From the NCBI GenBank assembly GCA_947175195.1, contig CAMWLQ010000009.1, positions 1 to 50,623 on the forward strand: a stretch of 50,623 nt of DNA. Direction: 5' to 3'. Positions within the stretch are counted from its first letter, which is position 1. Each line of letters opens with the position of its first letter. Origin of the DNA: an uncultured Clostridia bacterium. Its GTDB lineage: Bacteria; Bacillota; Clostridia; Christensenellales; Pumilibacteraceae. Of this stretch, positions 1 through 26,387 are shown in pieces. The translations under genes and the position numbers were made by a program. The notes under the pieces are model-generated. The model was not told the DNA's origin and did no database searches. It saw only the letters and a list, made by a program, of their open reading frames with translations.

Positions 1-3000
1 CGGGTTTCCTGCCGCGCTTTTTGCCCGTTCCCGTGCTTGCCGCAGGTTTCTTTTCCTGTTGCTTGGGTTGATCGGGCTCCATAATGCCGGCAATTTCGTT
101 AAGCTGTTCCTTCAAGTCGGACAGCGAATCGGAAAGGTCTACGTCCGAATCGAGGTCGCGGACTCTTTCGCGTTCGGCAAGCACCGTTATTTCGTCGCGG
201 AGCCGCGAAATAGCGTCGAGTATGAGCGCGTTTTCTTGGCTGGGCTTTTCTTTGCTGAGCTCTTCTCTAAGATCGGCAAGCTCGGCAAGAATGGTTTCGT
301 TGTCGGATGCGTTGCCCGTTTGCGTCATAACCTCGCGCAGTTTTGCCACCTCTTCGGCAACGGCGTCGCTGGACGCTATTTCCGCTTTGAGGCTTTCAAT
401 CTCGTCGGTAATCTTAGTGCCCGCGTTTTGCGTGAGGTACTGGTTTTGGCGTTCCAAAAGGTGCGCCATTTCCGACATAAAGTTGAGCGTTGTAAGGTCC
501 GCGTCGCGCTGGTTAGCCATGTCGGTGCGCAATACGCTGAGCTCTTCCAAAATCCTGTTGTTGGTTGCGTCGTTGCCGAGCGATGCCACCCTGTCCGCAA
601 GTGCCTCGACCACAGCCTCGCGCTTGTCGATTGCAGCCTTGAGCTTGGCAAACTCTTCCGAAATTATCTCTATATCTCTTGCCGAGCCGGCAGCGGATAC
701 TTGGTCGCGGAGTGACGCAATCTCGTCGAGAATTATATTGTTGTAGCTTTCGTAATTGGATTCGCCGGATGCGGGATCGTTTACGTTAGCCATGCTGATA
801 GCGAACAGCTGGTCGCGGAGCGACTGAATTTCCGCCATAAGCGTGTCGTCCGACTCGCTGTCCGTTTCGCCGGCAATGCGTTTTACGTCCTCGATTTGCT
901 CGCGCAGCGCCTGGAACTCGTCGCGCAATGCCAAAATCTCGCTCATAACGCCAAGATCGGGCTCTTCCTTCAATGACTGAACGTCCGCTCTGATTGCCGT
1001 TACGTCCTCGGCTACGCCGAACATGCTGTCGGGCGACGCGAGCATAGCCTTGATTTCCGCCAGCTCGTCCCTGAGCGATTGTACCTCTACGCTGTTGCCG
1101 CCGCTTTCCGCCGCTACGGTGGTAAGCGAACGCAGCTGCGCTATTTCGTCGCGTATCTCGCCCAGCTCTCCGATAAGCCCTTGCTGTTCGGTTTGAGCGG
1201 CAAGCATGTCGCGTATATCCTGCAAAGCTTGCTCGTCCAGCCCCGCAGTAGCCTGTACGGGCTCGACGTTGACTGCCGCAACTTGTTCTTTAAGCTCGCG
1301 GATTTCGTCGATGAGCGTTGCGTAAGACGCGTCGCCGTCAGTTGTTGCCGCGGGCGTGGCTACCGCCATATCGCGTATAAGGTCTTTAAGCTCGTCTATT
1401 TGTACGGAAAGCACGTCAGTGCCGTCCGTCTTTAACTGTTCGTTTTCGGCGCGAAGTGCCTCGATTTCCGCACGCATTTCCGCCATTTCCGCCGCGTAAT
1501 CTACGGGCGCCATGTCCGCAAGAGCGGATTTAATATCCGCCATTTCTGCGGCAAGCTCGTCAAAGCGCTCAGCAAGCGAGCCGGTAGCCGCGCCGCCTTC
1601 CTCGGCGACGGTAGCCTCCTGCACAAGCCTAATATCTTGCAAAGCCGCATTGACTGCGTCCAACTGCTCGAGTACGGGCGTAAGGTCGACTTCGGCGGTT
1701 ACGGGTGCACTTTCAGCATAGGTTTCCGTTGTCGTTTCGGCGCCAATCTCAGCCGAGTTGTTTCTCAGCTCGTCGAGCACGGCGCGAATATCTTCCACTT
1801 GCTCGGCGATTGCATTAAGCCTATCGCCGCCCAAGCTTTCCTCTATTCTGTCTATGTCGCTCTTGAGGTTGATTATTTCGTCGAGTACAACGTTCAGTTC
1901 GTCGACGTTTGCGACTGCACCTTCCTCGTCCCCGCTCGAAACGGTCGTCCTGCGACTGACAAGGTCTTTAAGCTCGTCGATGTTCTCGTTAAGCGCGGTT
2001 TGGTCGGCACGCAATGCGGAAAGCTCGTCAAGCACGGTCAACATATCTTCGGAGTTTTCAGCTGCTTGTACGGGTTGTTCCTCTTGAGGCTCCGCAACAC
2101 CTGTTGCGTTGAGCACCTCGTCCTTGAACGCAAACACTTCGTCGCGCAAGGACACTATCTCGTTGAGTACAAGATTGATTTCGCCGTCGGTAGCCGCGGA
2201 TCCTTCGCCGTCGCCCACGGGCAGGTTGGCAATATCCTCGCGCAGGGCGCGGATTTCGTCCAGTATGTTGCCCGACGATATGGCGGCAAGCTCGTTCTTA
2301 ATAGATTCCAGCTCACCCGACACTTCGTCTTGGTCGACTATGCGCGCTGCCTTGATGTCCTCGCGCAAGGACAGGATTTCCTCGACGGTGTCGTACTCGG
2401 ACGACGCATCGAGTTTTTCCTTGATTGAGGAAAGTTCGGCAATGAGCGCCTGCATATTGTCCGCATCGAGCTGTTCTTGGTCGGCTTGATCGTCCGTTTC
2501 CGCGGCAAGCCCCTCCAACATGGACTGCAGCTCGCCGAGCTGGGCGGAGATTTGTTCGATAGCGGATACGTTTAAGTCGTTGACCGTTTGAGTAGCGCTT
2601 TCGATATTGCCCAAGCGTTCGCGTATTTCGGCAATCTCGCCCAAAAGCGCCTCGCGGGTTTCTCCGTCTATACCGGACGCGGACATATTCTCGTCCAGCG
2701 TGTTGATGTGAATTTCTTCTCTTATACCGCTGACCGCGTCGATTATATCTTGCTTATTTGCAGCGGAGGTTTGCTCGTACAGCTCGATTTTTTCAAGAAC
2801 AAGCCTAATATCCTCGGCCGTGACGTCCAGCGATTCGCGGAGCGCGGTTATCTCGTCTATAACGGGCTGATTGTCGGCGGGCGTTTCGGCAAGAACTGCT
2901 ACGCTTTCCGCAAGTCCGTTGACCGATTCGAGCAACGTGGTTACGTTTTCACGAATGAGTGCAACGTCGTCCGCTTGCGGCATTGTTGCAAGCGCGTCGA

Positions 3001-5965
3001 GTATGGCAAGCGTATTGTCGCGCGCGACAACTACGTCGTCCGACTGCGGCATAAGCGTGAGCGTGTCGAGTATGGAGTTCAGGTTGTCGCGTATAATAGC
3101 AAGCTCGTCCGCAGTATATTCGGTTTCCTCGACGGTTTGTTCCGTTTCGGTCGCAGTAGGCGTTTCGAGCCTTTCGAGTATGCTGTTTAACTGCTCGGTT
3201 ATGGGCGTAAGTGCGTCGAGCGCGGAGTTAGCCGCGTCGCGTGCCGCAACAACGTTTTCGCCCATAGCGTTTACGTTGTCGTTGATTACGGCAAAATTAT
3301 CGTTGACGGCAACAAAGTTGTCGTTGATAGCCGCAATGCTGTCGCTCGCTGCCGCAACGCTGTCCGTAACGGCGGACAATGCGTCCGACACGGCGGCTAC
3401 GTTGTCCGACACAGTAGCTACATTATCGCCTATTGCCGTTACCGTTTCCTTGGTTGTTGCGGTGTCTTCGGCAACCGTATTGATCAAAGACACACGCGCC
3501 GCAATTTCGTCCATATAGTCGACAAGCTTTTCGCTGTCCTGAACTGCCTCGGCGGCGTCGGGGATTTGTTCGCTTTCCGCAATGGCAAGCTCGGCTTGCT
3601 CACGCAGGAACGCTATATCGTCCAGCAAACGCTGTCTATCCGACGTTGCAGCCTCGGTGTTTACCGTGGACGAATCTATAAACGAATTTACGTCGGCGCG
3701 GAGCTGTTCGATAGCCTCCGTCGTGGGCGACATAAGTATGGCGTCCGATACCGTGGCAAGCGATTCCCTGATGGACTGCGTGTCGGCAAGAATGTCCGCT
3801 TTGGCTGCCTCGATTGCGTCAACCGTAGCACTGCCGTCGCCCAGCTTGCCTATGATATTGGATTCCGATTCGATAATTACGTTGGTAACGTCCTCGTACA
3901 GCTTGTCAAACTGCGCGGTAATTTCGGTCGTAAGCGTTGTGACCTGTTCCGCAAGCTGTTCGGAGAAATCAGCACTGCCGCCTGCCGAATTCAGTTCCGT
4001 GCGCAGGTCGGACAAATTGTTGAAGAACGTTTCGTAATCGTCAAGCTTTGCACGGATATAACCGAGGTCGTCAAGCATGATTTGACGCTCCTCGTCCGTC
4101 ATTGCCGCTCCGCCCGTCGTTTCGGTTGTCGTTTCGACGGTTATCGGCTCTTGCAATTTTTCGGAAATATCGACAATGCGATTGGTTATATCAAGATAGT
4201 TATTGCGCAGCTCTTCCAGCGCACCCGCAACGTCGTTGTTGCCCGTGGCGCTTTCCAGCTTGTTTTTAAGGTCGTCTACCGAATACAGTATTTGCTGTAA
4301 CGCCGCCTCGTCTACCGACAACTCGCCGTCCGCCGACGTGGGTATTATCGTGGGCGGTCTGTCCATAACCGCGGACTTAAGATCGGCAAGCTTGGTAAAC
4401 AGAGTTTCGTCGTTTTCGACGCGCGCGGGCTTGTACGATTTGGGCAAATCCATTTCGGGCAAATCCAAAATGTCAGCAACGGTGATGTCAACAAGACGTT
4501 CGACCATTTCCTTAACGGCGGATTTATCGCCGTTTTCGTCGAGCAACGCCGTGGTTATCTCCCCGACCGCGGCGGCATTATCCGCCTCGTACTTGTTACC
4601 CTGAAGGGTGTTGAGCTCCTCTACAAGATCGGGCAAATAGTCGCCGTACGATTCAACGTTGGCGTCCGAAATTTTATTTACAATGTTAAAGAAACGATCG
4701 GCACTGTCGCGCATAGCCGACGTTATGGTCGTCATGCCTCGCTCGGCACAGAATTCCGCCACAGCCGTAAACGACTGCTTGTTGAGCGGCTGAGCGCCAA
4801 GCTCGTCTATAAGCGAATTAGTGGCTTGCACCAAGTCGATAGCGTCGGGCTCGTTGCTGTCCGAAAGGCGTTTTACGTACGCGTACAATGCATTGAGCTT
4901 GTCTTTGTATGATGCGGATTGCGAGTGAACATCGTATGTAACTTTTTTGAAGTCATTTACAAGCTCGGAAATTGTTTGTGCGCGCTTAACGGCGGCAGGC
5001 GACGCATTGCCTATAGCCGTTTTTATTTCGTACAGCTGGCGCAAAAGCTCGGCTGCGCTCACTTCCGAAACAACAGGAGCGGTCGCGGCAGGCGCGGCGG
5101 CAGCGGTAGCAGTAGGCATAGGCGCGCCTTCCAGCACAGCCTTTAACGCCGCAATCTCGCCCGAAAGCTTGGTAAGACTGCCGGTATCCATGCTGTTGGC
5201 GGCTTTTTTCATAGACGAAACCGCGCCGTTAAGTTCCTTAACGGACGGCATTTCGTCCAACTGCTTTTTAAGCTGACCTATTTCGTTTTGAACGCGCGCA
5301 TCGGTGTCGCGCATCGCACGCAAAATAGCCTCGTTAATCGAAAGTAGTTTGTCTATATCCAACGTCGATTTTCCGCCCTCAACGTTAGCCTGTTCTTGAC
5401 CGACAGGCAGCTCACCTTGAGGGCTTGACCCGTTTTTTAGTAGGTCGTCGATTCTACTCTGCAACCGTTGGATTTCCGCTTTGTACTGAGCCTCCGCAAA
5501 CTTTTGGTCGCGTTGCATATCTTCCTTGATACGCGTAAGCTCTTTTTGCATCTCCAAGCTGCTCTGGTTACGGGCAAGCTCGTCGCGCAAACGCGAAATT
5601 TCGTTGTACATTACAACCTCGCTGCCGGCAGGCGGAGCGGTGGGTTGGTAAATGTACTGAGGCGGCATAATGGGCTGAGGCTGCTGTTGCGTAGCCGGTA
5701 CCATTCCCCTCTTTAATTCGGCAAGCTCGTCAAGGACTTTGTTCAGGCGATCGTCGTAGTAATCGTCGTTGTAACCGTCGTCGTACTCCTCGTCACCGTA
5801 GTCTTCGTCGCCGTAATCCTCGTCGTACTCGTCGTCGTACTCTTCGTCGTCGTAGTATTCATCGTCCTCGTAGCCGTCGTCGTACTCTTCGTCACGCTCG
5901 GTTACTTCTTCCTCTACGATCTCCTCATCATCCAACGAAAAAGTCGTCTTGTCTTGGTTGTCCAT
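1..5965 (-). CDS. Giant cytosolic coiled-coil protein with acidic Tyr-rich N-terminus (partial, 3' end outside window)
   Basis: The frame is open from the ATG at 5965 to the window edge: 1,988 codons with no stop, so the C-terminus is missing. A GAGG Shine-Dalgarno lies about 7 nt upstream of the start. Residues 1-72 are almost only Asp, Glu, Tyr and Gly (blocks such as DDEYYDDEEYDD and DYGDEDYGDEE). A Pro/Gln linker follows, then about 1,850 residues of predicted coiled coil built on recurring patterns like IxxLRxEL and LDELxxLK, with Thr/Ala/Glu-rich spacers. The last visible residues are basic (KKRGRKP). There is no signal peptide and no membrane segment, so it should be cytosolic. It is the third gene of the giant-protein operon, 105 nt after the second. 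I recognise no family; a scaffold or filament role is inference from composition and context only. Confidence 0.85.
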   Translation of the reverse strand, partial: MDNQDKTTFSLDDEEIVEEEVTERDEEYDDGYEDDEYYDDEEYDDEYDEDYGDEDYGDEEYDDGYNDDYYDDRLNKVLDELAELKRGMVPATQQQPQPIMPPQYIYQPTAPPAGSEVVMYNEISRLRDELARNQSSLEMQKELTRIKEDMQRDQKFAEAQYKAEIQRLQSRIDDLLKNGSSPQGELPVGQEQANVEGGKSTLDIDKLLSINEAILRAMRDTDARVQNEIGQLKKQLDEMPSVKELNGAVSSMKKAANSMDTGSLTKLSGEIAALKAVLEGAPMPTATAAAAPAATAPVVSEVSAAELLRQLYEIKTAIGNASPAAVKRAQTISELVNDFKKVTYDVHSQSASYKDKLNALYAYVKRLSDSNEPDAIDLVQATNSLIDELGAQPLNKQSFTAVAEFCAERGMTTITSAMRDSADRFFNIVNKISDANVESYGDYLPDLVEELNTLQGNKYEADNAAAVGEITTALLDENGDKSAVKEMVERLVDITVADILDLPEMDLPKSYKPARVENDETLFTKLADLKSAVMDRPPTIIPTSADGELSVDEAALQQILYSVDDLKNKLESATGNNDVAGALEELRNNYLDITNRIVDISEKLQEPITVETTTETTGGAAMTDEERQIMLDDLGYIRAKLDDYETFFNNLSDLRTELNSAGGSADFSEQLAEQVTTLTTEITAQFDKLYEDVTNVIIESESNIIGKLGDGSATVDAIEAAKADILADTQSIRESLATVSDAILMSPTTEAIEQLRADVNSFIDSSTVNTEAATSDRQRLLDDIAFLREQAELAIAESEQIPDAAEAVQDSEKLVDYMDEIAARVSLINTVAEDTATTKETVTAIGDNVATVSDNVAAVSDALSAVTDSVAAASDSIAAINDNFVAVNDNFAVINDNVNAMGENVVAARDAANSALDALTPITEQLNSILERLETPTATETEQTVEETEYTADELAIIRDNLNSILDTLTLMPQSDDVVVARDNTLAILDALATMPQADDVALIRENVTTLLESVNGLAESVAVLAETPADNQPVIDEITALRESLDVTAEDIRLVLEKIELYEQTSAANKQDIIDAVSGIREEIHINTLDENMSASGIDGETREALLGEIAEIRERLGNIESATQTVNDLNVSAIEQISAQLGELQSMLEGLAAETDDQADQEQLDADNMQALIAELSSIKEKLDASSEYDTVEEILSLREDIKAARIVDQDEVSGELESIKNELAAISSGNILDEIRALREDIANLPVGDGEGSAATDGEINLVLNEIVSLRDEVFAFKDEVLNATGVAEPQEEQPVQAAENSEDMLTVLDELSALRADQTALNENIDELKDLVSRRTTVSSGDEEGAVANVDELNVVLDEIINLKSDIDRIEESLGGDRLNAIAEQVEDIRAVLDELRNNSAEIGAETTTETYAESAPVTAEVDLTPVLEQLDAVNAALQDIRLVQEATVAEEGGAATGSLAERFDELAAEMADIKSALADMAPVDYAAEMAEMRAEIEALRAENEQLKTDGTDVLSVQIDELKDLIRDMAVATPAATTDGDASYATLIDEIRELKEQVAAVNVEPVQATAGLDEQALQDIRDMLAAQTEQQGLIGELGEIRDEIAQLRSLTTVAAESGGNSVEVQSLRDELAEIKAMLASPDSMFGVAEDVTAIRADVQSLKEEPDLGVMSEILALRDEFQALREQIEDVKRIAGETDSESDDTLMAEIQSLRDQLFAISMANVNDPASGESNYESYNNIILDEIASLRDQVSAAGSARDIEIISEEFAKLKAAIDKREAVVEALADRVASLGNDATNNRILEELSVLRTDMANQRDADLTTLNFMSEMAHLLERQNQYLTQNAGTKITDEIESLKAEIASSDAVAEEVAKLREVMTQTGNASDNETILAELADLREELSKEKPSQENALILDAISRLRDEITVLAERERVRDLDSDVDLSDSLSDLKEQLNEIAGIMEPDQPKQQEKKPAASTGTGKKRGRKP

Positions 5966-6070
5966 AAATGTTCCTCGCATTTGTTATTTGTTTTTACACT
6001 TATTCCTACCGCTTTTGCGGAATCGAATCGTTTGGTTGTTGCATTCAACGCCTAATCGCGCCGCTTTGCC

Positions 6071-9000
6071 TTACTTGGGTCTTTTGGGACCGCCCGGGCG
6101 TGCGCCGGGACGTGCACCCGGTCTTGCACCGGGGCGTGCTGCCGGTCTTGCGCCGGGACGCGCCGCAGGACGTGCACCCGGTCTTGCGCTTGCGGGACGT
6201 GCGCCCGGTCTTGCGCCGGGACGCGCCGCAGGACGTGCACCCGGTCTTGCACCCGGTTTACGCTTAGGTATGCGGTTGACGCGTTCCGTGACCTTGCGGA
6301 CAATACGTTGCGGCTTTTTGGCGTTTTCGGCTTTTAACCGCGCTATCTCGCCGCTGCTTTGAATATCGTCCATGGTCTTGTTGTAGAAGTCCATAAGCTC
6401 GGTAGAGCCGCGCTCGTCCTCGTCGAACGTGAGCTGCAAATTGTACAGCCGTTCGCGCAAGTTCTTTGCCTCTTCGTCGCCCTTGAGCTCCTTCATTTCG
6501 TTGCGGATGGCTATAATTTGATCCCTACGCAACGCAACCTTCTTGGCAATAGCATCCGCACGCTCGGCCTCAGCCTTTTGACGAGCCTCTTCTTCCTTGC
6601 GCTTGTTCTCTTCCTCCAAACGCTTGGCCTCAGCCTCCTCGTCGGCTTTGCGGCGCATATCCTCGATTTCCTCTTGGGCTTTGCGCTTTGCCTCTTCCGC
6701 CTCTTCCTCGGCTTTGCGTTTTGCCTCCTCGGCATCCGCCTCGGCTTTGCGGCGCGCCTCTTCGGCGTCTTCCTCCGCTTTGCGCTTTGCCTCTTCCGCC
6801 TCGGCAGCCATTGCCTCCTCAGCCTCTTTGCGCGCTTGCTCGGCGGCCTCTATATCTGCTTTCGCCTTTTCCTCAGCCTCGATACGCGCTTTCTCAGCAC
6901 GCTCTACAGCCTCCTGCGCGTCAGCCTCGGCTTGACGGCGAGCCTCCTCGGCCTCTTCCTGCGCCTTGCGACGTGCCTCCTCGGCTTGCTCTTGCGCCTG
7001 CTGCGCGGCAAGACGGGCTTGCTCCGCCTCAAGTTTGGAACGCTCAAGCTGCTTTTTGAGGTTTTCCGCCTCGATTTTGGCTTGGTCCTTACTGATTATA
7101 CCGCTGCCCGATGTAATAAGGTCGAGCGGGTTGGTGTTGTTGACAAACTCGTCGAACGACTTGCACGCTTGCTCGAAGTCCTCGTTGGCTCTGTCGAGGT
7201 CGGTGCGGGCGCGTTCAAGATGCTCGTCGTATTCGGACTGAGCCTCCATCTTGCGCTTGGTGCCGTCGATATTGGTTTGCTCGAGCCTGGCTTTGAGCTC
7301 TTCCAGCTTGTCGGAAGTGTCGCCCTGAGCAACCATAAGCTCCAGCCTTTCGTCCTCGGACGCCGCCTCCATTTGCGCGTTAATATCGTCGAGCTGGGTT
7401 TGTACCTGAGCGATTTCCTCTTCCAGCTCGGATATAGCCGACGCAACCTCCATAGCAATCATGGTCACGTCGTTGGACGATGCGGACAAATCGTCGTAAA
7501 CGGCTTGTGCATTGGCTACAGCCTTTTCCGCCTCTTCCTTTTCCTTTTCGCGCCGTGCCTTGACCAGCTCGAATTCTATCGCGCCCAAAACCTTGTCGTC
7601 CGCTTTGATAACCTCTTCCAGCGGGATTTCGTTTTTGGTGATAAAGTCGTTTGCCTTGCGGCGCTGCGAGTTGAATTCGATATTGAGGTCGGACTTTTGC
7701 TTTGTAGTTTTTGTGATTTCGCGTTCAAGCTCGGACAGCCGCGCGTTGGCGTCGGATATTTGAGCGTTGAGGTCGGCGATAATGCCGAAATCGGTAGCGC
7801 CCAAAATTTGCGACTTGGCCTGAGCGACCGCGGACTTGAGCGACTCGCGCTCTTTGTCCTGCTCTACCTCAAGCGCGTCTATACGCCTAAGCTCGTAATC
7901 GGTTTTGTTGACGTCTTCCAGCAACGGCTCCAAAGTGACGACCTTTGCCTCGAGTTCCTGACGCTTGCGCAAAAGCTCCATACGCTCGACATACGCGTCG
8001 TATTCCTTTTTGGCTTTTTCGAGGTCGGAAACCGCACGTTCCAAATCCGCATTCTTTTGCTGTTGCACATCGCTGAGCTTGGAGTAAATGCCGTTTATGC
8101 GATCGCTGTTGCCCAAAAGGTCTTCCAGCTCTTGACGAAGGCGTTCGAGCTCGTCGCTGTTGCGCTTTTTCTTTTCCTCTTTGATGCCGATGTCGCGCGT
8201 GATAATGGGTTTGTCTTTGTTCTTAGCCGAGGCGAGCTTAAACTCAAGCTCCTCGATGTCCTTGGCATACTGCGCGTCGTCGTTTTCCGCCTTGGCGATT
8301 TTTTCGCGCAATTCCTCTTCCATAGTCTTGGCGCGGTCGACCTCGGTTTGCACCTTATCCAAACGCGTCTTAAGCTCGGCAAGCTCTTTGTTCAAAATTG
8401 CGTTTTGACGCTCGATATTGCGCAGCCTGCTCTCCTCCGGCGAGGTGTCTATATCGATCTTTTCCTCGGTAAACTCGTCGGACGTATTTTCCTCTTCGAC
8501 GTACAGCGGCGAATCGGGATCGAAATCGAGCACGAACATTTCGACAGGACCGGACTCGGTTGCCATAGGCTCGGACGTCGCGGCGGGCGTAGAGGTCGCA
8601 CCAGCGTTTTTGATTTCCGTTTCGCTCATTATCGCCTCGTCCATAGGCATGGGCGACTTGTAACGCTCGATAATGCGTTTCTTTTCCTTATCCAGCTCGC
8701 GCGCCTGCAAATCCTTGGACTTGAAGAACGTGCGGCGTACCATGCCCTTCGGCTCGTACTTTTCGGTGAATATGCGCTCCAAAAGCTCGTCGTCCGAAAT
8801 GTACTTGGCGATAAGCTCATTCAAGTTTTCATCCCCGTCGGTGGGCGGCACGGTTGCCTGCGGCTCGCTCATAAGCGGCGACGAAGGCGACGACATAGCC
8901 GGCGACGAAGGCTGACCGGTTGCAAGCTGCAACGTGTCGGGCAGCGGCGCCGCGCCCGTGGCGGGACCTGCGCCCAAAAGCATTTGCGTGCTTGCTTGCG

Positions 9001-11119
9001 ACAAAGCTTGATTTTGCGCCGCGCGCGCCTGTGCTTGAGTTGCGGCTATAGTGGAATTAAGCTTGACAATGTACGACGATACAGGCGCCTGCATGGCAAG
9101 CTCGTCCTGCCTGCGCTTGGACAGCGCATGAAGGAATATCCACACAATGAACAGTATTATAATCAATCCGCCCAAGCATGCAGCGGCAATTATAAGCGCT
9201 GCCTCCCACGTTTCGAAACGCCTGAACAAATCGCCCGCGTTGGGATCGATAGTGAACAACTCCGAATCGAAAGTAATGGTTTGCCTGTTGTTGTTTGTGA
9301 ATGTGAGCCTTACCGACGCTTTGACCTGACCCTTGATATTATCCACGTTGGGGTCGAGCTTTAACACGTTGTTATCAAAAGTAACGGTGAGCCAATCCTC
9401 GTTATTTGATTTAGCGTCCGTAAGCAAATATCCGAGTTCGCGCATCTTTGCAAACTTACCCGAATTAAGAGCGTTGTACGATACGGCATCTTTGCCCTTG
9501 ATAGTATCGAAACCGACCGAATATCCGCCGTACGTTGTGACAATAATAGTTGCGGGATAATTTTGAGCGGCAGCGCCCTCACTCGTGCGGTAACGTATAT
9601 TGAACGTAATCGTATACGTACCGTCGTTGTCGTTGTTGGGGACCTTTTTACCGGTAATTCGGTACATATCGACAATATATTTTTCTTCATTCGTTTCGGT
9701 TGTTTCGTCAAGTACGTAGTTGTCCCCGTCTTTCCTTACGCGCTCGATAGTAAGACCGTCAACCTTAAGCTCATCCGTTCCATCAAGTTGTGTCTTAGTG
9801 TGATCGAACTTAGGGGCCTCCGCACTGGTGGGATCTATGGGCGAGCTGTACTCCATAAGATCGGTCGGCCTGACGATAATCGAACAATGATCGAACGAAC
9901 TGTCGTTTTGCGACAAATCACATACGGCGTCCGATGTGACGTTAAGACGCAAAGCCTTGGAATTTACCGCTTTCTCCTGCGGGTTGGCAGGCTGGAACTT
10001 GATGGGAATTAAAATCACACACCTTGTTGTGTTGGGCAATGTGAAATTTTCCACACTGCTGGGCGTATTTTGCGCCGTCACTACACTGATAGTGATTTCC
10101 ATTATGTGCGTTTCCGCCCAAAAATTCTTGCCACTGTCTTGATTGTACAGGTTGACTATGGACGAATACACCTCCACATCACCCGTGACGCGCGGTGAAA
10201 TGCGAACAAAGTCGCTGACGGTATTGGTTGTGACTTGGTCTTTCAAACTCAAGCTGGGAAGATTACGGAATGATACGCTGTCGATTTTGATATTAGTGAC
10301 GGACTTGATTGTCCACTTTTTTGTGGAGCCGTCGGTAAGCGCAGTATCCGTTCCGCCAACCGCGGTATTTTCCTCATACAACGCGCGACCCAGCAAATAC
10401 TCACTGAGGTCAAGCTCCAACGTAGCGAAATTGGACACATTCAATATGGACGCATGCCCATTGCTGGCTGAGCTGGCATCATACGACGGGGTGGTTTCCT
10501 CGCCGTTGGCATTTACTTCATTACCGACATACAAGGACTTAAGGTTGTTGCCGCTTGCAACACCGCCCTGTACCAACGTGTCGTTGATAACGACCTCAAA
10601 GTACGCAGTAGTTGTTGCGGTGACGCCGCGCTCATCCTTGCGAATGTCAATGGAAAAATTGCCGTTTACACTACGGGCAATATAAGACGTTGCCTCTACC
10701 GTTATAACGTTATGTTCCGAATCCTCCGAGTCGGATCCTGTGAATGCAACGGAAAATTGAGTATTGCCGTTTATCAAAGACGCTTTAACAAACGTATACT
10801 CATCACCGCTTACATAGCCGGGAATTATCCTTTGAGCTATTGCATTTGCGGTGATAGTGCGTTTTCTAAACTGCTTAACGTTGTTTTCTGTGATTTTAGC
10901 GGCAGTATTGTCTTGGTCGGACTGTTGAGCCTCCTTTCCGTTTAAGTCGAACACGAGCGGAATAAAGCCGCTACCGTTGCTGGCTGTGCCGCCTGCATTG
11001 TTGCCGACATCGGCGGAAACGGCAGCATGCGGCAAAAACACTGCCACGAAAAGCGCCAAAACCGCTATAACAAGGATGGAAAACAGTAATATGTTGCGTT
11101 TTAATGATGTTCTTTGCAT
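6071..11119 (-). CDS. Giant two-pass membrane protein with cytosolic coiled coil, single-alpha-helix region and Arg-Pro-Gly-Ala tail
   Basis: 1,682 residues. The frame extends further upstream, but ATG 11119 is preferred: it has a GGGGGAGG Shine-Dalgarno in the 19-nt gap after the previous stop and opens directly into a signal-anchor. Residues 9-30 are hydrophobic (signal anchor or signal peptide). Residues 31-635 form a Thr/Asn/Ser-rich beta-type extracytoplasmic region. Residues 638-664 are a second membrane segment followed by SKRRQDE. After a Pro/Ser-rich linker, about 895-1330 is coiled coil, 1345-1530 is an Ala/Glu/Arg/Lys-rich heptad stretch typical of coiled coil or a stable single alpha helix, and 1620-1682 is a tandem RPGA tail of high positive charge. 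No enzymatic motif is visible. It is the middle gene of the operon and probably links the cell surface to a cytosolic structure (inference). Confidence 0.9.
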   Translation of the reverse strand: MQRTSLKRNILLFSILVIAVLALFVAVFLPHAAVSADVGNNAGGTASNGSGFIPLVFDLNGKEAQQSDQDNTAAKITENNVKQFRKRTITANAIAQRIIPGYVSGDEYTFVKASLINGNTQFSVAFTGSDSEDSEHNVITVEATSYIARSVNGNFSIDIRKDERGVTATTTAYFEVVINDTLVQGGVASGNNLKSLYVGNEVNANGEETTPSYDASSASNGHASILNVSNFATLELDLSEYLLGRALYEENTAVGGTDTALTDGSTKKWTIKSVTNIKIDSVSFRNLPSLSLKDQVTTNTVSDFVRISPRVTGDVEVYSSIVNLYNQDSGKNFWAETHIMEITISVVTAQNTPSSVENFTLPNTTRCVILIPIKFQPANPQEKAVNSKALRLNVTSDAVCDLSQNDSSFDHCSIIVRPTDLMEYSSPIDPTSAEAPKFDHTKTQLDGTDELKVDGLTIERVRKDGDNYVLDETTETNEEKYIVDMYRITGKKVPNNDNDGTYTITFNIRYRTSEGAAAQNYPATIIVTTYGGYSVGFDTIKGKDAVSYNALNSGKFAKMRELGYLLTDAKSNNEDWLTVTFDNNVLKLDPNVDNIKGQVKASVRLTFTNNNRQTITFDSELFTIDPNAGDLFRRFETWEAALIIAAACLGGLIIILFIVWIFLHALSKRRQDELAMQAPVSSYIVKLNSTIAATQAQARAAQNQALSQASTQMLLGAGPATGAAPLPDTLQLATGQPSSPAMSSPSSPLMSEPQATVPPTDGDENLNELIAKYISDDELLERIFTEKYEPKGMVRRTFFKSKDLQARELDKEKKRIIERYKSPMPMDEAIMSETEIKNAGATSTPAATSEPMATESGPVEMFVLDFDPDSPLYVEEENTSDEFTEEKIDIDTSPEESRLRNIERQNAILNKELAELKTRLDKVQTEVDRAKTMEEELREKIAKAENDDAQYAKDIEELEFKLASAKNKDKPIITRDIGIKEEKKKRNSDELERLRQELEDLLGNSDRINGIYSKLSDVQQQKNADLERAVSDLEKAKKEYDAYVERMELLRKRQELEAKVVTLEPLLEDVNKTDYELRRIDALEVEQDKERESLKSAVAQAKSQILGATDFGIIADLNAQISDANARLSELEREITKTTKQKSDLNIEFNSQRRKANDFITKNEIPLEEVIKADDKVLGAIEFELVKARREKEKEEAEKAVANAQAVYDDLSASSNDVTMIAMEVASAISELEEEIAQVQTQLDDINAQMEAASEDERLELMVAQGDTSDKLEELKARLEQTNIDGTKRKMEAQSEYDEHLERARTDLDRANEDFEQACKSFDEFVNNTNPLDLITSGSGIISKDQAKIEAENLKKQLERSKLEAEQARLAAQQAQEQAEEARRKAQEEAEEARRQAEADAQEAVERAEKARIEAEEKAKADIEAAEQARKEAEEAMAAEAEEAKRKAEEDAEEARRKAEADAEEAKRKAEEEAEEAKRKAQEEIEDMRRKADEEAEAKRLEEENKRKEEEARQKAEAERADAIAKKVALRRDQIIAIRNEMKELKGDEEAKNLRERLYNLQLTFDEDERGSTELMDFYNKTMDDIQSSGEIARLKAENAKKPQRIVRKVTERVNRIPKRKPGARPGARPAARPGARPGARPASARPGARPAARPGARPAARPGARPGARPGARPGGPKRPK
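6074..6262 (-). repeat. Coding tandem repeat for the Arg-Pro-Gly-Ala tail
   Basis: The 3' end of the second giant gene consists of GC-rich near-identical units that alternate PGARPGAR and PAARPGAR, running from the codon of residue 1620 to the stop. Such arrays change copy number easily by slippage or recombination, so tail length may vary between strains. The regular Arg spacing without acidic residues suggests an unstructured polycationic linker. Confidence 0.85.
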
Positions 11120-11138
11120 AATTACTCTCGCCTCCCCC

Positions 11139-14100
11139 TTACATATTTCCGTCGCCCATATCGGACGCGTCGAAAATAATATCGCTGCCGTCGATGCTTT
11201 GTGCGCCGCCGTCGCCAAAGCCACCGTCGCCAAAGCCGCCGTCATTGGGCGCATACCCACCGTCCGCGGCAAAGCCTGCGTCGGGCGTTACAAACCCGCC
11301 GTCACCGCCGTAGCCACCGTCAGGCGCGACAAAGCCGTCGCCGTCCAAAGGAACTTCGGTTGCAAACGGATTTACGGGCTGAGCGTTGCCGGCTTGCGCG
11401 GCTGCGAACGCCGCTTTCTTTGCCGCCAACTCCGCCTTCAATTCCGCAACGGATTTTTTGCCGCCCTTCTTCTTTTTCTTTTTGGTCTTTTTGTCGGCGG
11501 TAGCCGCAAGGTCGGAATTGACCAGCGCTACGCCGCTTTCCTCTTCCTTATCCCTACGCATATCGTTGAACATTTTTGCGTACTTGGGATCTTCCATTTT
11601 AAGCTTGGATTTGACCAGCTGCTCACGCGAGGCTGCGTTTGCCTTGCCATGCATACGGTCGCGCAAACGAATAAGCTCTTGGTTGCGCTTGATAATGGCG
11701 CGCTGCTTAGCTCTGCGGCGCATATACACTATAAAGCGAATCATAAAGATTATAAACAGCACGCCGAACACGATAGCAAGCGAGTACAGCCAAATATTGC
11801 CGTAGCCGATAATACCGTCGTCATCCGTCATAACGGGCAATTCGGTGAGAATACCCTTAACCGATACTTCAAACGTAAGCACCTTTGTGGTTTTGTCGGA
11901 ATCGTTGTACACCGAAACGCTAAGCTCGTAGTTTTTATCAGTATTGAGCTTGGGCGTAATTTCTATGGATCTTTCGTTGCTGCCCTTGTCGTACTGGAAA
12001 TACTTGGTGGCGGCACTGTCTGCCGACAAAAGGAATATAGTGCATTTGTCCGAGCCCGCAGTTTTATCGAGATCGAGCAAATATTGCAGGTCTATAGATA
12101 TGTGCGTATTCAGCTTGTCGCCTGTTTGAGTCCACCAGTCGGCTTTTTCCTTGTTACGGCAATCTATATCGGCAACCAAATCGCCGCCCTTTTTGTCGTC
12201 CTGCAGCTTAACCTTACCGGAAGAGATGGGAATGACAATTTCTATTATCGATTTATCCGCAGGAACGTCCTCGTACTTATCTATTCCCTCGGGCGCGTCG
12301 GTATAGCGCACGTACATTTTGTACGTCTTGCTTTGATTGGTGGAGCTGTTGCTCGCCTTTATGCGTATAGTAGCGTTGCTTGTATTGGCACGCTCAATCT
12401 CTACCTCATCTACAAACGGGGGGTTGCCGGTATTGCCGTCCTCATCCTCGAAGTATATAGCGCCGGCTACGTCTTTTTGCAAAATCCTATACCCGACGTA
12501 CGAAGAATTTCCGTTTTCATCTTTAAAGGTATTGGCACTGCGAATTGCGGCGTCAAGCTTGGACACAGGGATATACTCGTAATCTATCAGCGATATTTTT
12601 TCGCTATCGCCAAGCTCGGTAATAGCCGAAACGTTGATTGTAAGCTTAAAGGTTAAGCTCTTGTCGTAAACGTTTGCCGAAAATACGATAGTGCCAGTGC
12701 CCGAACGTTTGGGCGTGATTGTGAACTTTGTTTTGTCAACGGAGGCCTGCGGGTCGTTGACAATGAACAATCGTTCGTTTTCCGCCTTGTCTTTTTCCGA
12801 GTATTGCAAACCGTAAATTTGAACGTTTGCCTTGAGCGTGTCAAATGCATTTTGGGAAATTTGGCTACCGCCGGACGCCGTTATGTTTACAAACGATTTG
12901 GCATTTTCTATTCCAACGCTACCCTCACCAAACAGGTCTATAGTAGTGTTTTTGGTTATAGTGTAACTCGTTTCGGCGTCGCCTTTAGAGAAATTAAAGC
13001 CGACAATGTTGTTAAAGTTGAACGTAAGATAAATCTTTTCGTCAACGTCGTTGCCGTTTTTAAAATACCTTGTTCTTCCGGCATTAACAAAGCGCTGAAT
13101 TTCGACCGTAAAGTTGATGGGCGCCGCCGTTGTGGGATGTACGGAAATTGTGTTGTCAGTCAATGTGACAATACGCATATTGTGTCCGGTAAAGTCCTTA
13201 AACTGATTGGCAAATTCCGCAAGACTGGCGGTATCTGCGGGACTGACCGGATTGGTAGGATTAGTGGCAGCCGATGATTTGCTAAACGCAAAGCTGATGG
13301 TTTCGAGATTGGTATTTGCCACATAATCGGTAAGCCTGATCGTAATGGTATCGCCCACGTACAGCGGATCGGTTGTCGTGTTGCTGTGCGTTTCCACATA
13401 TGTGTTTTTGGATCCGCTTGCTTGACCGTTTGTATCTTCCTGAACGCTGTCTTTAAGCCTAAGCGAAGGCAAAGCGAACACGTGCACAACGCCCGACAAG
13501 TTCTCTCTGGGCGTATCCCTATCCTGAGGGCTCTCTACGTAACCTGCAGCGTCGGTATACGTGTATTTGTTGAATGTGCGCGATATAAAGCTCGCCGTTG
13601 CGTGCGGCTGATTTTGCACTGTGTTGTAGTCGGTAACACTTGCTGCCTCCGTAGCTGTACCGGTATAACCTATTACACCCGTACCTGCCTTTGCAGTAAA
13701 CGTGAGTACGTCATAGCTAAACGAAAGATAGTTTTTACCACCCTCGGTTGTATACTTAAATTCATATAAACCGTATCTATTGTCGAATTCGGCGGCAATG
13801 GTTTTAAGCAACGTAGCGCCGAAATTATCCGCGGTCAAATCAGCATTAACGCCTGTGATGCCGTAGCTGCTCGGCAAATATTCAACCTTGACAACTATCG
13901 TTTTGATTTCGCCTTCTACGGCAGTGCTCGACATAATATCACTGTTTTCACGATTTTCGAGCTTGATTCTTTCGCTGTCGCGGTCGGTAAACATAAACTG
14001 ATAAATGCTGTCGTTTGCACTCATCGTATTGTTGCCGCTACTGTCTTTAATATAATTATACTTTTTTAAGTCCTCGTTATTCAAATAGTAGGTAAGGTCG

Positions 14101-16925
14101 CCCTTTTCTACTTTTTCACTATCTGGGAAACCGATGTCCTTTTTCATTTCGGTCATTACTGCCGTTTTGAAATTGGTATTGACATTTTCGCCGCCGGTGA
14201 GGAATTTAATAAGCTCGTTGACACCTGTGGAAACGTCCTGCACCGCTATGGAATAATATTTGTTGTACGGATTGTTGGGATCCAAAAGCGGAATATTGCT
14301 CTTGTTGGCATTTGTCGAATTATACGCCGAATAGGTAACGACCGAAGGCGTATCGGCAATGGAGAATATTATACTGCACAGCTTGTAATCGTAGTAAATG
14401 GCATTGTCGCCGTTGGTGACGTTGCTGAACTTGCCGTAGCTGTTGTAACGAGCGATATAAAAGTCTACCCTTATGTTCTTGCCCTTGGACGACTGCTTGG
14501 GCTCGATGTAAATACCGACTCCCTCGCCGTTGTCGCCGTACACTTCGCGGAACGTGAACATATTTTGCTGCTGTTTCGTGCTCATAAGGCTGCCGCCCGT
14601 GCCGTTCTCATTGCTGTCAAAGTAGAACTTGGGCGCGTAGTAAGTGAGCTCATTAATATCTGTATTCAAATTATCGGCTTTAAGATAATTTATGCTCGCG
14701 TCCGCGGCGGAAAGTCCGATAATTCTATACGCGTCGCCTATTGCATTTGTCGAAACAAGCGGTTTATACGCAGTTTTGCTACCGCCGTTTATCTCTATAT
14801 CCTCAGACTCCACGTCGGCGTTTTCCTCGCCCTTGGTAAGCACGGTTGCCGACCAAACGTAGAACGTGGCGTTGCCTAAATAAGGCGACACCTGCTGTGC
14901 GGCGGGAGCGTCTTCGTCTATCGTCGGAACGTTAAACACAACCTTGTTGGTTTTGTCAACCGTCCAGTTATCTATCTTAACAGCATTGCCCGCAGCATTT
15001 AAAGTATAAAACTCGTCGTAAACATACTGCTCAAAATCGGTGCCTGCCGAGTTTTTGGTAATGCGCACCAGCTTGCCGCTTTCGGTAACGGCATACAGGA
15101 TTTCGCCGTAGCCGGAATACACGGCGGCAAAGCTTTCTTTTTTGTTGCCGCTTATGCCCATGTAGGTAAGCTGCTTTACCTCTGATATGCCGTTGCTCCA
15201 AGCGTAAATATCGCCGCTCGTTGTGAGAGCGCCGGTTATATATCCCTGCTCGTTTTTAACACCGTCGGCAAACGTCGTGCCGCTAAACGTTGTGTTAGTA
15301 CTGAAGAACGCCCTGTCCGTCTTGGATTTTTGCTTACCTGCGGCGACGGACATGAAATTGACGCTGCTAAGCACCGCAGTAGGCTCGTCCTTATTGGTGC
15401 CGTTCACCCCGGGGGTAATTTGACCGTAGGCGTTGTCGCCCCAGCCGTACAGCTTGCTGTTGGCTATGCCGTAGCCTATATCGTTGCCGAGCGCAACGGC
15501 GTAACGCGTGGGTTTAAGCGCCGTTTCGGTTGTGGTTGTGGGCTGACCCTGAGCATTTACTCCTGCTACCTGATAGCTTTCGATTCTATTGTCGTTGCCT
15601 GTTCCCGCGGCCTTGGAGTTGATAAGGAATCCCGCCTCGTTGCCCGAGATGTTATACCTAACGCTACCCGCTTGACGCGCATAATACTTTTCGGTGTCTT
15701 TTCCATAGAGCGAGCCCGATCCCGAATCATTGATACTGTTACCGCCGGCGAGTGCGCCGAGATACGACGCGCCGTTCCATGTTATGTTTGTGGCGTTATC
15801 CGTTTCGGTCATTACAAGCTTTGCGGTATTAACTACGTTAAAGTTGCTGTCCGCCGACGTTACGCCCTGCGTTGTTATAAAGTTGCGACCGCGCAGCTGA
15901 AGGGTCGTACCACCAGTAACGTTTGCCGCGGTATTATTAATGCCTACCGTGTAACCGCCGGCAACAGCCGTAATAATTCCGGTAGAGCTTGACGAAATAA
16001 ACGTGTTGAAAACTTTGCGGCCGTTTTCTTGAACAGTTATCGAACTGCTGGAATAAGAAAAGGATGCGCTGGGAATTGTGTTTATCGCATTATACAGTGC
16101 GGAGCCCCAAACATAGGTGTGATACATATCACCCCTTTCGGAATGTCCTGCAAGCGTGCCGCTACTGGGATAGTTACGGATAAACGCAAGTATATAGTTA
16201 TATTCGCCCGCAGCCAACGACGAGAACGTAGCGGAGTCGTTGGTGGGGATCATTTGCTCGGTGGAATATTTGGCTGTAAAGTCGGCAGAAGACGTAGCAG
16301 CGCCATAGTAATAGTAATCTATAATGTAAGGGACTTTCCAAGAATATTCTTTGGTTTCGTCGGTTTCGCGCAACAATAAGTAATGTTCGCCCGAGGCGTC
16401 GTTGTGCGGTACGTCATGCTTTACGTCGGTGTCCACGCCCCAAGTATACAAATAGCCTCTTTCGGTTACAAACGCCGCGGTAGTGCCCGTGGCGGCAATG
16501 CTTTTGATTTTATCGTCGGTGCGCGGAGTATGATAGTTTATCTCGGTACCCGTGCTGCCCCATCTATAGCCGCTGCCCGACGCGCCCCTACGGAACGTGA
16601 CTTTGATTTCCGTCGGGTCGTATGAGTAATAGTCGCCCAGCGATTGCATATTTGACGTGTCGCGCTTCTCTTTGGTACTCCAACCGTAAAGCTTACGGTC
16701 GTACGTAAGACCGATAGCAAAGTCGTAGCCGGCTGCGACCTGAACAAAACGTATACCGTCCGTAACCTTTGCGGCGGGCGTTGTCGCCCCGTCCCCATCG
16801 GCACGCGCTATGCGGTCGGGCAAGATATATCCCAACGACAGTACCGCGCAGAGGATAAGCGCTATCACTGCGACAAACGATACTATACGTGATTTGATTC
16901 TATTAGATTGCTTTGTCAATTTCAT
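11139..16925 (-). CDS. Giant secreted RCC1-like propeller protein with C-terminal membrane anchor and basic/Gly-rich cytosolic tail
   Basis: 1,928 residues. A signal peptide spans about residues 1-42 (hydrophobic core, then an ARA site before DGDG). Residues about 52-625 contain RCC1/ATS1-like units with the typical pattern 'VAAG..fai.l...g.lYgWG' (for example VQVAAGYDFAIGL with LYGWS, IAATGTTAAFV with YLYTWG, and KLYGWGDNAYGQ), predicting a beta-propeller outside the membrane. A long beta-rich region of unknown type covers about 640-1700. One membrane segment lies at about 1710-1732, followed by MRRRAKQR, a coiled basic stretch, a poly-Lys block near 1815 and a Gly/Asp/Phe-rich tail (GGFGDGGFGDGG). 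It is the first gene of the operon, 19 nt before the second. RCC1 propellers usually bind proteins; the ligand is unknown. Confidence 0.9.
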   Translation of the reverse strand: MKLTKQSNRIKSRIVSFVAVIALILCAVLSLGYILPDRIARADGDGATTPAAKVTDGIRFVQVAAGYDFAIGLTYDRKLYGWSTKEKRDTSNMQSLGDYYSYDPTEIKVTFRRGASGSGYRWGSTGTEINYHTPRTDDKIKSIAATGTTAAFVTERGYLYTWGVDTDVKHDVPHNDASGEHYLLLRETDETKEYSWKVPYIIDYYYYGAATSSADFTAKYSTEQMIPTNDSATFSSLAAGEYNYILAFIRNYPSSGTLAGHSERGDMYHTYVWGSALYNAINTIPSASFSYSSSSITVQENGRKVFNTFISSSSTGIITAVAGGYTVGINNTAANVTGGTTLQLRGRNFITTQGVTSADSNFNVVNTAKLVMTETDNATNITWNGASYLGALAGGNSINDSGSGSLYGKDTEKYYARQAGSVRYNISGNEAGFLINSKAAGTGNDNRIESYQVAGVNAQGQPTTTTETALKPTRYAVALGNDIGYGIANSKLYGWGDNAYGQITPGVNGTNKDEPTAVLSSVNFMSVAAGKQKSKTDRAFFSTNTTFSGTTFADGVKNEQGYITGALTTSGDIYAWSNGISEVKQLTYMGISGNKKESFAAVYSGYGEILYAVTESGKLVRITKNSAGTDFEQYVYDEFYTLNAAGNAVKIDNWTVDKTNKVVFNVPTIDEDAPAAQQVSPYLGNATFYVWSATVLTKGEENADVESEDIEINGGSKTAYKPLVSTNAIGDAYRIIGLSAADASINYLKADNLNTDINELTYYAPKFYFDSNENGTGGSLMSTKQQQNMFTFREVYGDNGEGVGIYIEPKQSSKGKNIRVDFYIARYNSYGKFSNVTNGDNAIYYDYKLCSIIFSIADTPSVVTYSAYNSTNANKSNIPLLDPNNPYNKYYSIAVQDVSTGVNELIKFLTGGENVNTNFKTAVMTEMKKDIGFPDSEKVEKGDLTYYLNNEDLKKYNYIKDSSGNNTMSANDSIYQFMFTDRDSERIKLENRENSDIMSSTAVEGEIKTIVVKVEYLPSSYGITGVNADLTADNFGATLLKTIAAEFDNRYGLYEFKYTTEGGKNYLSFSYDVLTFTAKAGTGVIGYTGTATEAASVTDYNTVQNQPHATASFISRTFNKYTYTDAAGYVESPQDRDTPRENLSGVVHVFALPSLRLKDSVQEDTNGQASGSKNTYVETHSNTTTDPLYVGDTITIRLTDYVANTNLETISFAFSKSSAATNPTNPVSPADTASLAEFANQFKDFTGHNMRIVTLTDNTISVHPTTAAPINFTVEIQRFVNAGRTRYFKNGNDVDEKIYLTFNFNNIVGFNFSKGDAETSYTITKNTTIDLFGEGSVGIENAKSFVNITASGGSQISQNAFDTLKANVQIYGLQYSEKDKAENERLFIVNDPQASVDKTKFTITPKRSGTGTIVFSANVYDKSLTFKLTINVSAITELGDSEKISLIDYEYIPVSKLDAAIRSANTFKDENGNSSYVGYRILQKDVAGAIYFEDEDGNTGNPPFVDEVEIERANTSNATIRIKASNSSTNQSKTYKMYVRYTDAPEGIDKYEDVPADKSIIEIVIPISSGKVKLQDDKKGGDLVADIDCRNKEKADWWTQTGDKLNTHISIDLQYLLDLDKTAGSDKCTIFLLSADSAATKYFQYDKGSNERSIEITPKLNTDKNYELSVSVYNDSDKTTKVLTFEVSVKGILTELPVMTDDDGIIGYGNIWLYSLAIVFGVLFIIFMIRFIVYMRRRAKQRAIIKRNQELIRLRDRMHGKANAASREQLVKSKLKMEDPKYAKMFNDMRRDKEEESGVALVNSDLAATADKKTKKKKKKGGKKSVAELKAELAAKKAAFAAAQAGNAQPVNPFATEVPLDGDGFVAPDGGYGGDGGFVTPDAGFAADGGYAPNDGGFGDGGFGDGGAQSIDGSDIIFDASDMGDGNM

Positions 16926-16972
16926 AAGACCCTACTTATGACCGTATTGCCCCGAAAACGTGGCTATAACGC

Positions 16973-16991
16973 CGAATATGTATACTATTCG
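16973..16991. promoter_or_regulatory. Inverted repeat in leader of the giant-protein operon (possible operator)
   Basis: CGAATA and TATTCG flank a central GTATAC palindrome, giving a nearly perfect 19-bp dyad. It sits about 10 nt downstream of the predicted transcription start and 48 nt before the start codon at 16925. This position fits a repressor site or a small leader hairpin. No cognate regulator is identifiable. Confidence 0.4.
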
Positions 16992-17008
16992 ACATTATTC
17001 ATTTATTA

Positions 17009-17037
17009 AGTATAGTACATTTCGGTGGTATTGTCAA
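17009..17037 (-). promoter_or_regulatory. Sigma-A-type promoter of the giant-protein operon
   Basis: On the minus strand TTGACA (17032-17037) and TATACT (17009-17014) are separated by exactly 17 bp. Transcription would start near 17001, leaving a leader of about 75 nt before the first giant gene. No further promoter of similar quality is seen before the second or third gene. Confidence 0.8.
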
Positions 17038-19056: not shown

Positions 19057-19062
19057 ATAGTT

Positions 19063-19091
19063 ATTATACCGCGTTATTACCGAAATGTAAA
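19063..19091 (-). promoter_or_regulatory. Promoter predicted to give a leaderless transcript (gene at 19056)
   Basis: On the minus strand TTTACA (19086-19091) and TATAAT (19063-19068) have a 17-bp spacer. Only six bases separate the -10 box from the GTG at 19056, so the first transcribed base should be at or next to the start codon. No Shine-Dalgarno is present. Confidence 0.7.
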
Positions 19092-19101
19092 GACATTTTG
19101 A

Positions 19102-19194
19102 CAATTCGAAATTCGGAATTATGAATTCGGAATAATTTGTGTAGTACGCTTTGCGCGCCTTTTTCTTAATTTTGGATTCTTAATACTTAATTTG
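19102..19194. repeat. MITE-like AT-rich dispersed repeat that forms the ftsW 3' end
   Basis: The segment begins with repeated AATTCGGAATT-type blocks and ends with AATTAAGAATT-type blocks in the opposite orientation, giving imperfect terminal inverted repeats of about 18 bp around a short GC-rich core. This is the look of small non-coding dispersed repeats. It encodes the last ~20 residues and the stop of ftsW. Copy number elsewhere in the genome is unknown. Confidence 0.45.
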
Positions 19195-21618: not shown

Positions 21619-21666
21619 ACGGTATTCTATGATGAAAAGCGGCTGTTTAGAATTTTGTACAACTAT

Positions 21667-24080: not shown

Positions 24081-24280
24081 AACGTCATCTCCCGCAATTA
24101 GTATATGTTTATTTTAAAGCTAAAATAGAACAGCGGCACACTTTTGCAAACAATGGTATAATTCGACACAATCACGGATTGAATCTTTTTCTTATGTGAA
24201 CTTGTACGCAACTCATTTTCTTATCCGCATAATAGATTGCTTATTGTTCTTTATTTGCGTTTTTCTATATATTTCTATTG

Positions 24281-26173: not shown

Positions 26174-26257
26174 ACACCACCTCTCAACTCTATGTATATG
26201 AAAGCAATCACGTAATAAAAACCTGCACCAATGATTAGCCTCGAAATTGCAGCCCAG

Positions 26258-26387
26258 CCTCGGCGACGCAGGCGCGTCGCAGACGAGCAACAGTCGGCAA
26301 GGCGGCGACGGGAGTGTACATAGACGTACATGACCGAGCCGCCGCGACGAACGTAGCCCGTATCCGACGATGCATGCGCCGTCGAGC
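26258..26387. repeat. Long imperfect palindrome inside the dcw cluster (REP/MITE-like)
   Basis: Two arms of roughly 60 bp are imperfect reverse complements: the outer ends CTCGGCGACGCAGGCG and GCGCCGTCGAG, then GTCGGCAAGGCGGCGAC against GCCGCCGCGACGAACG, around a centre at about 26322 with TGTACATAGACGTACAT. The whole 130-bp segment could fold as one hairpin. It is non-coding, GC-rich compared with its flanks, and sits 84 nt before the pbp start. Confidence 0.6.

Follow-up and report, generated by a model that had tools for sequence, protein, structure and literature searches.

Three giant proteins encoded within the division cluster of Pumilibacteraceae may form a lineage-specific surface-to-cortex scaffold

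Genes for cell division are among the most conserved in bacteria. In the wall-less mycoplasmas, the attachment organelle joins adhesins on the surface to large coiled-coil proteins of the cytoskeleton, and the RCC1-repeat proteins RCC1 and UVR8 act inside cells. MapZ of Streptococcus has its N-terminus inside the cell and binds FtsZ directly (PMC7055233), and in the Tol-Pal system the six-bladed TolB acts with TolQ-R-A between the inner membrane, wall and outer membrane (PMC7391070). The locus described here lies on contig CAMWLQ010000009.1 (C9) of an uncultured Clostridia bacterium of the family Pumilibacteraceae, gut bacteria that have received little study; the whole contig (50,623 nucleotides, nt) is the window, and the genome comprises 1.78 Mb in 32 contigs. 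Three genes for giant proteins, named P1, P2 and P3, sit there within the division and cell wall (dcw) cluster, between ftsW and murA-ftsQ-ftsA-ftsZ. They are read tentatively, with a probability of roughly 0.45, as encoding one lineage-specific scaffold from the cell surface to the cortex that is tied to division or wall growth.

All three genes are co-directional on the minus strand, separated by 19 nt between P1 and P2 (11120-11138) and 105 nt between P2 and P3 (5966-6070). The promoter, gene sizes and gaps reported in the initial annotation were recovered from the open reading frames (ORFs) of the window and a promoter scan, and its proposed layout also holds up, with a recognition part outside, two anchors in the membrane and a long coiled coil in the cytosol. 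The features of the three proteins are as follows.

11139..16925, minus strand: P1, 1,928 amino acids (aa), with predicted signal peptide, RCC1 propeller, beta-rich stalk, C-terminal membrane helix and cytosolic tail
14979..16763, minus strand: predicted RCC1-type seven-bladed propeller of P1, about residues 55-649
11727..11783, minus strand: predicted membrane helix of P1, residues 1715-1733
11526..11726, minus strand: conserved cytosolic membrane-near segment of P1, residues 1734-1800 (identity within genus)
6071..11119, minus strand: P2, 1,682 aa, with predicted signal peptide, beta-sandwich ectodomain, one membrane helix and about 1,020 cytosolic residues
9200..11035, minus strand: P2 ectodomain, residues 29-640 (AlphaFold2 model of residues 29-690, mean predicted local distance difference test score, pLDDT, 81.7; matches to SbsB S-layer and cadherin folds)
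9143..9199, minus strand: predicted membrane helix of P2, residues 641-659
8630..8812, minus strand: best-conserved cytosolic block of P2, residues 770-830 (mean identity 93% in the genus, 70% across genera)
6290..6622, minus strand: conserved C-terminal helical block of P2, residues 1500-1610
6074..6283, minus strand: basic GARP-repeat tail of P2, net charge +21 in the last 70 residues
1..5965, minus strand: P3, at least 1,987 aa in the window, heptad-rich, no membrane helix; gene cut by the contig end
Contig C10, 48089-48520: end of the P3 gene
5681..5965, minus strand: acidic DY-rich N-terminus of P3, net charge -39 in the first 80 residues
659..886, minus strand: core motif of P3 (LRDQLFAISMANV...YESYNNIILDEI), kept even in the 122-aa form

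The family was surveyed through 74 Pumilibacteraceae genomes from 18 genera, with P3 sought by a C-terminal profile. Profile matches were obtained in 57 genomes for P3, in 33 for P1 (seven of the 18 genera) and in 46 for P2, a count that includes the weak matches in G032 and G077 and a soluble paralogue in G086, which are probably not true P2. P2 is present in all 33 genomes with P1, and P3 in 31 of them by profile and in a 32nd (G008) by separate detection; the genome where P3 was not found, G085, is an assembly of 410 contigs. The three genes stand in a row on a single contig in 26 of the 33, counting genes cut by a contig end as well as G007, G035 and G094, and in the other seven (G003, G009, G015, G017, G085, G087, G089) a contig ends within or between them. 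Conservation as a unit, proposed as a check in the initial annotation, is borne out. In G007, P2 is split into two overlapping frames (L031 8246-13349) by a frameshift that is either real or an assembly error, and additional ORFs accompany the trio in two genomes:

L056 14069-15487; L037 12563-13183; L100 10309-10848: 472-aa protein before P1 in G035, which reads as an RCC1-type lipoprotein, and small P3-like ORFs between P2 and P3 (G035, G094)

Given the presence of P2 in every P1 genome, and the genes remaining together even away from the dcw cluster in G035, it is very improbable that these are chance neighbours with separate functions, as might be suggested by P2 and P3 occurring without P1 in several genera.

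Within the surveys made, the trio did not extend beyond one bacterial family. A pattern scan covering 84,980 species, one genome each, which detects only genes with either of two short peptides, gave 38 loci, for part of which the family was assigned; these include the named isolates Pumilibacter intestinalis, P. muris and Anaerocaecibacter muris, all Pumilibacteraceae. Within an order-wide sample of 396 genomes, the P1 C-terminal profile matched 18, all within the family, and the P3 core profile matched 30, being 28 of the 33 family members and two of the 363 others. These two weak matches (G183 and G291, E 7e-4 and 7e-5), to 328-aa proteins in a run that reads as type IV pilus genes, were judged chance coil matches. 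Across the phylum (398 genomes), the P3 core matched the window's own genome and none of the 397 others.

The distribution within the family is largely nested, with P3 alone, P2 and P3, or all three. In one genus (g8), 13 of 14 genomes gave P3, which measures 983-1,134 aa at the three loci that were read, and P2 gave a single weak match; in another (g18), P3 was found in five of eight, P2 and P1 not being found; in the two g18 loci read it is a protein of 122-129 aa directly before murA. P2 and P3 occur without P1 in G068 (g10), G022 (g4), G024 and G097 (g6), G031 (g13), and G034 and G092 (g16), as well as in G030 (g12), where P3 was detected other than by profile. The same kind of detection gave P3 in G029 (g11), where a 354-aa P2-like ORF was recognised by reading alone. 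In a tree of six proteins from 45 genomes, with states set by hand from the surveys and gene readings and some markers missing, the full trio falls in three separated clades, with deep support of 0.08-0.73. Late stepwise gain of the trio is therefore unsupported, weak as the deep nodes are; repeated shrinkage from the outside inwards would fit the three clades, and gain, loss and transfer are all compatible with them. Separately, a Pumilibacter (g2) protein of 519-550 aa that looks soluble by eye contains the C-terminal block of P2 (L125 7911-9563; L126 6951-8510) and adjoins genes read as obg and nadD.

P1 is a member of the RCC1 superfamily, with repeats recognized by profile (PF13540, 47 bits, cut-off 22; PF00415, 22.0 bits, cut-off 21.7) and a seven-bladed propeller of RCC1 type; its score against PF25390 (47.6 bits) is below the cut-off of 150. 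The propeller fold and membrane layout are predicted, and profiles and predictions together support the signal peptide, propeller and C-terminal anchor first annotated. The outer part of P2 is, on the model and fold matches listed above, probably a chain of beta-sandwich domains, and S-layer, cadherin and Ig chains are candidates for a shared fold. Homology between the two ectodomains was considered and rejected, the profile comparison giving just a 45-column match with a probability of 57 and BLASTP nothing significant (best E 0.21). The Pfam scan found no SLH or other known wall-anchoring domain in P1 or P2. P2 was initially described as a two-pass protein, and this had to be revised because in its homologues the first hydrophobic stretch is followed by AxA-type sites (e.g., VSALA↓EGN and TAKA↓EGN, recognized by eye rather than by a signal-peptide program). 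The first hydrophobic stretch is most likely a cleavable signal peptide and mature P2 a single-pass, type I protein. Compact forms of P2 in relatives (314-826 aa) seem, by eye, to be devoid of the ectodomain.

The window holds most of P3, and another 145 codons stand at the end of contig C10; in the close relatives L018 and L019 the protein has 2,155-2,206 aa. Both contig ends encode the ASTGTGKKRGRKP stretch, which is the likely reason for the contig break. Heptad periodicity exceeded that of shuffles (p<0.05, uncorrected) in 27 of 65 windows of P3 and, in the cytosolic part of P2, in 18 of the 55 windows of that protein, compared with 2 of 63 in P1, in agreement with the coiled coil first proposed for P2 and P3, which is itself a prediction. 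Neither protein matched a Pfam or NCBIfam family above cut-off, and Pfam matches of the P3 C-terminus and of the compact forms (the latter searched against Pfam only) were likewise all below cut-offs. SMC membership was rejected at 17-29 bits, far below cut-offs of 567-729. Neither of the two findings named at first annotation as refuting the proposal was made: the genes do co-occur, and P2 and P3 fall in no described family, P1 having the known domain RCC1. The periodicity of P2 and P3 would also suit a bacterial cortex skeleton, in which the two form a coiled-coil meshwork at the membrane that gives shape or stiffness, with anchoring to the wall by P1 and the P2 ectodomain, as would the mreB-like gene adjoining P1-P2 in G089. 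Such filaments are purely hypothetical, however, and the unit was not matched in some family genomes, making a skeleton of this kind distinctly improbable.

Sequence divergence differs between the outer and inner parts. Within the genus (means over 11 sequences, 36-55 pairs each), the outer parts of P1 and P2 share 34-42% identity, compared with 71% for the membrane and juxtamembrane part of P1 (residues 1715-1800), 75% for P2 641-700, 80% for the P2 C-terminal block, 75% for the P3 core and 82% for the acidic N-terminus of P3; the distal cytosolic tail of P1 has 59%. Among representatives of several genera, identity is 22-28% in the outer parts and 21% in P3 310-560, the P2 770-830 block being far better kept. 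Fixed inner blocks combined with variable outer parts are the pattern expected of a scaffold with a constant inner partner. Exposed protein parts are, however, generally expected to change faster, and the divergence also agrees with the main rival explanation, surface adhesion to gut mucus, food particles or neighboring cells, anchored inside by P3 and with no role in division, the dcw cluster providing steady expression only. An RCC1 propeller and S-layer- or cadherin-like chains are recognition and stalk folds, and the named isolates among the carriers come from mouse faeces or caecum. Adhesion would leave unexplained the retention of P3 at a constant dcw position in genera where neither P1 nor true P2 was found, and it is considered possible but rather unlikely. 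Motility was also suggested at first annotation; no motility gene is among the annotated neighbors, although no search was aimed at such genes.

The scaffold reading draws its link to division from the genomic setting, for which the following features are relevant.

17193..28591, minus strand: division/wall cluster upstream of the trio, with mraZ, mraW, an ftsL-like gene, a penicillin-binding protein (PBP, SpoVD-like), murF, mraY, murD, ftsW, M2 and M1
17009..17037, minus strand: sigma-A type promoter, TTGACA-N17-TATACT, matching 11 of 12 consensus positions
16966..16998, minus strand: 13-bp inverted repeat just 3' of the -10 of the P1 promoter (genus only)
L128 13390-14403: mreB-like gene upstream of P1-P2 in G089 (g5), 262 bits, just below the cut-off of 293

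The trio was first placed beside the division cluster but lies inside it, because the P3 end on C10 is followed on the same strand by murA (1.9 kb on), ftsQ, ftsA and ftsZ, and the genes from ftsW to mraZ lie upstream. On C10, murA (485 bits) and ftsZ (376 bits) exceed their NCBIfam cut-offs, ftsA (117 bits) is below its cut-off of 176, and FtsQ, for which there was no family match, is named from similarity to relatives and position. The upstream PBP bears PASTA, and the ftsL-like gene is FtsL/DivIC-like. The order mraZ-mraW-pbp-murF-mraY-murD-ftsW ... murA-ftsQ-ftsA-ftsZ was found with two upstream exceptions (G035, G089). In 14 of the 16 trio genomes with upstream flank fetched, M1 comes first among the same-strand cluster genes upstream, and ftsW follows in 12 of the 16; ftsW is about 30 kb away in G094, and the contig stops at M1 in G088. 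Downstream, murA was found in 16 of 26, the flank of the remaining 10 being 0-2.3 kb long. A divergent pair, named serC-serA from its translations, lies between M1 and the trio in many relatives.

The promoter is the top scorer among 15 sigma-70-like matches in 5.8-17.4 kb, an ordinary count compared with 11.7 expected in shuffles. A match of 11-12 positions with N17 spacing was found in 18 of 19 P1 upstream regions, near-identical congeners included, at shuffle frequencies of at most 0.01 each; that of L101 has 10 of 12 and that of L037 lies 301 bp upstream. A vegetative promoter this close to consensus, found across several genera, points to expression during growth. The inverted repeat, which adjoins the P1 start in 27 of 178 fetched loci (some being one genome repeated), may act as a hairpin at the 5' end of the mRNA or as a repressor site; 10 of its 13 pairs form in all 11 aligned sequences, some through G-U/A-U changes. 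Spacing in 17 loci, taking the first start codon of each frame as gene start, ranges from an 11-nt overlap to 23 nt for P1-P2 and from 14 to 163 nt for P2-P3.

Such a promoter speaks against a sporulation-linked structure of the polar septum, engulfment or coat, as does SpoIVA being present with or without the trio, including in g8, g9 and g18, genera that yielded neither P1 nor P2. The SpoIVA ATPase does occur in 63 of the 74 family genomes, SpoVD is the best-scoring family for the PBP (592 bits, cut-off 688), and FtsW scores slightly higher as SpoVE (365, cut-off 449) than as FtsW (354, above its cut-off of 338). There is also a precedent in C. difficile, where dcw-encoded synthases are reported to serve sporulation (PMC10693644). 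A role in sporulation is nevertheless regarded as improbable.

Several other genes of the window were noted. M1 and M2 (17193-19104, minus strand), after ftsW, are multi-pass membrane proteins by eye that matched no Pfam or NCBIfam family, and relatives of them are also present without the full trio (L109, L110). No MurG family match was obtained among the 20 ORFs scanned. Near the cluster, 30322-33024 (minus strand) encodes a 900-aa protein with Listeria-Bacteroides/InlB-type repeats (PF09479, 150 bits), with a relative in L050 (G002) and none at that spot in L047, L048, L049 and L052. Between 42001 and 50000 the G+C content drops from about 0.48 to 0.30-0.40, and this segment was possibly acquired.

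In the preferred scaffold, P3, as a long soluble coiled-coil protein, would be the inner core at the cortex. P2 would be the type I, single-pass membrane tether whose cytosolic coiled coil meets P3, and P1 would stand outermost, its RCC1-type propeller carried on a beta-rich stalk with a one-helix anchor and its conserved basic cytosolic segment docking on the inner layer. The distribution, which is largely nested, the cytosolic blocks that stay fixed in P1 and P2, and the position of P3 adjoining murA-ftsQ-ftsA-ftsZ suggest hierarchical assembly from the inside out, with P3 followed by P2 and then P1. The variable outer parts would face the wall or gut surroundings, and the inner parts may act together with the products of the neighboring division and wall-synthesis genes, a plausible role being to mark or brace the zone of growth or division. 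Mutual binding of the three proteins, the order of assembly, an outer ligand and the link to division are what we infer. A more ambitious version, considered unlikely, would be a new kind of trans-envelope machine in which two type I receptors, the first tipped with a propeller, are joined inside to a giant coiled-coil protein, all encoded in the division cluster and coupled to it in function, so that the surroundings of a Gram-positive gut bacterium are sensed or gripped and this is passed to the site of division or wall growth, with a logic resembling integrin-talin and unrelated descent.

Several observations weigh against the scaffold reading. In G035 the unit lies outside the cluster, and P1-P2 of G089 lie downstream of the mreB-like gene rather than of ftsW-M2-M1. 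Nesting is imperfect, with a P3 profile match in 39 of the 46 P2-matched genomes; of the other seven, G008 and G030 have P3 by other detection and G085, G086, G090, G091 and G032 do not. No trio gene was matched in some family genomes, such as G027 and G036 (96-97% complete), and the unit is therefore not required for division. Other cytosolic stretches are ordinary in their identity within the genus (P2 700-770, 53%; P2 coil, 61%; P3 310-1150, about 50%). The acidic N-terminus of P3 is retained where P2 was not found (L107), and electrostatic pairing of the P2 tail with the P3 head, although suggested by their charges, was rejected on this ground. The link to division comes from gene position, which could mean sporulation since the dcw synthases score best as SpoVD and SpoVE.

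The presence of undescribed giant proteins inside the division cluster of many family members suggests a lineage-specific biology of division, wall or surface. P2 and P3 are unnamed protein families with clear signature motifs, and the family offers a natural size series, from a P3 of 122 residues up to the full trio. As the carriers include named isolates (A. muris, P. muris and P. intestinalis), localization and imaging are feasible now.

No paper describing this system was found in the literature searched, a search mostly outside the subscription literature, and the VIA search speaks for the families listed there. Compared with RCC1-repeat proteins, which include RCC1, UVR8 and the ectodomains of plant CR4-type receptor kinases, the stalk and tail of P1 are without known relative, and the likeness to the attachment organelle of Mycoplasma, which is wall-less, is one of layout. 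MapZ is similar in crossing the membrane once, with one domain outside and a part in the cytosol, and in working with the division machinery; unlike MapZ, P1 and P2 are predicted to be type I (N-terminus outside), are far larger and have a separate coiled-coil partner (PMC7055233). The MapZ layout of a cytosolic N-terminus and C-terminal outer domain differs from that of P1 and P2, which have an N-terminal signal-peptide-like stretch and a later membrane helix, and no MapZ family was among the Pfam or NCBIfam matches of the three proteins at E<=0.1. Tol-Pal of Gram-negative bacteria is likewise an envelope-spanning set with a beta-propeller protein that is recruited to the divisome, but TolB has six blades and P1 seven (PMC7391070), and TolA, TolB and Pal families were absent from the trio's Pfam matches. 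Giant1-5 of Apilactobacillus kunkeei are also encoded by consecutive genes as very large, long surface proteins in a Gram-positive with a small genome, but have no predicted membrane helices and attach to the wall in an SH3b-like manner, whereas P1 and P2 have predicted membrane helices and a cytosolic partner (PMC12863079). The trio thus shares parts of its layout with MapZ, Tol-Pal and the A. kunkeei proteins and lacks defining features of each; its composition appears new, with a function that is putative.
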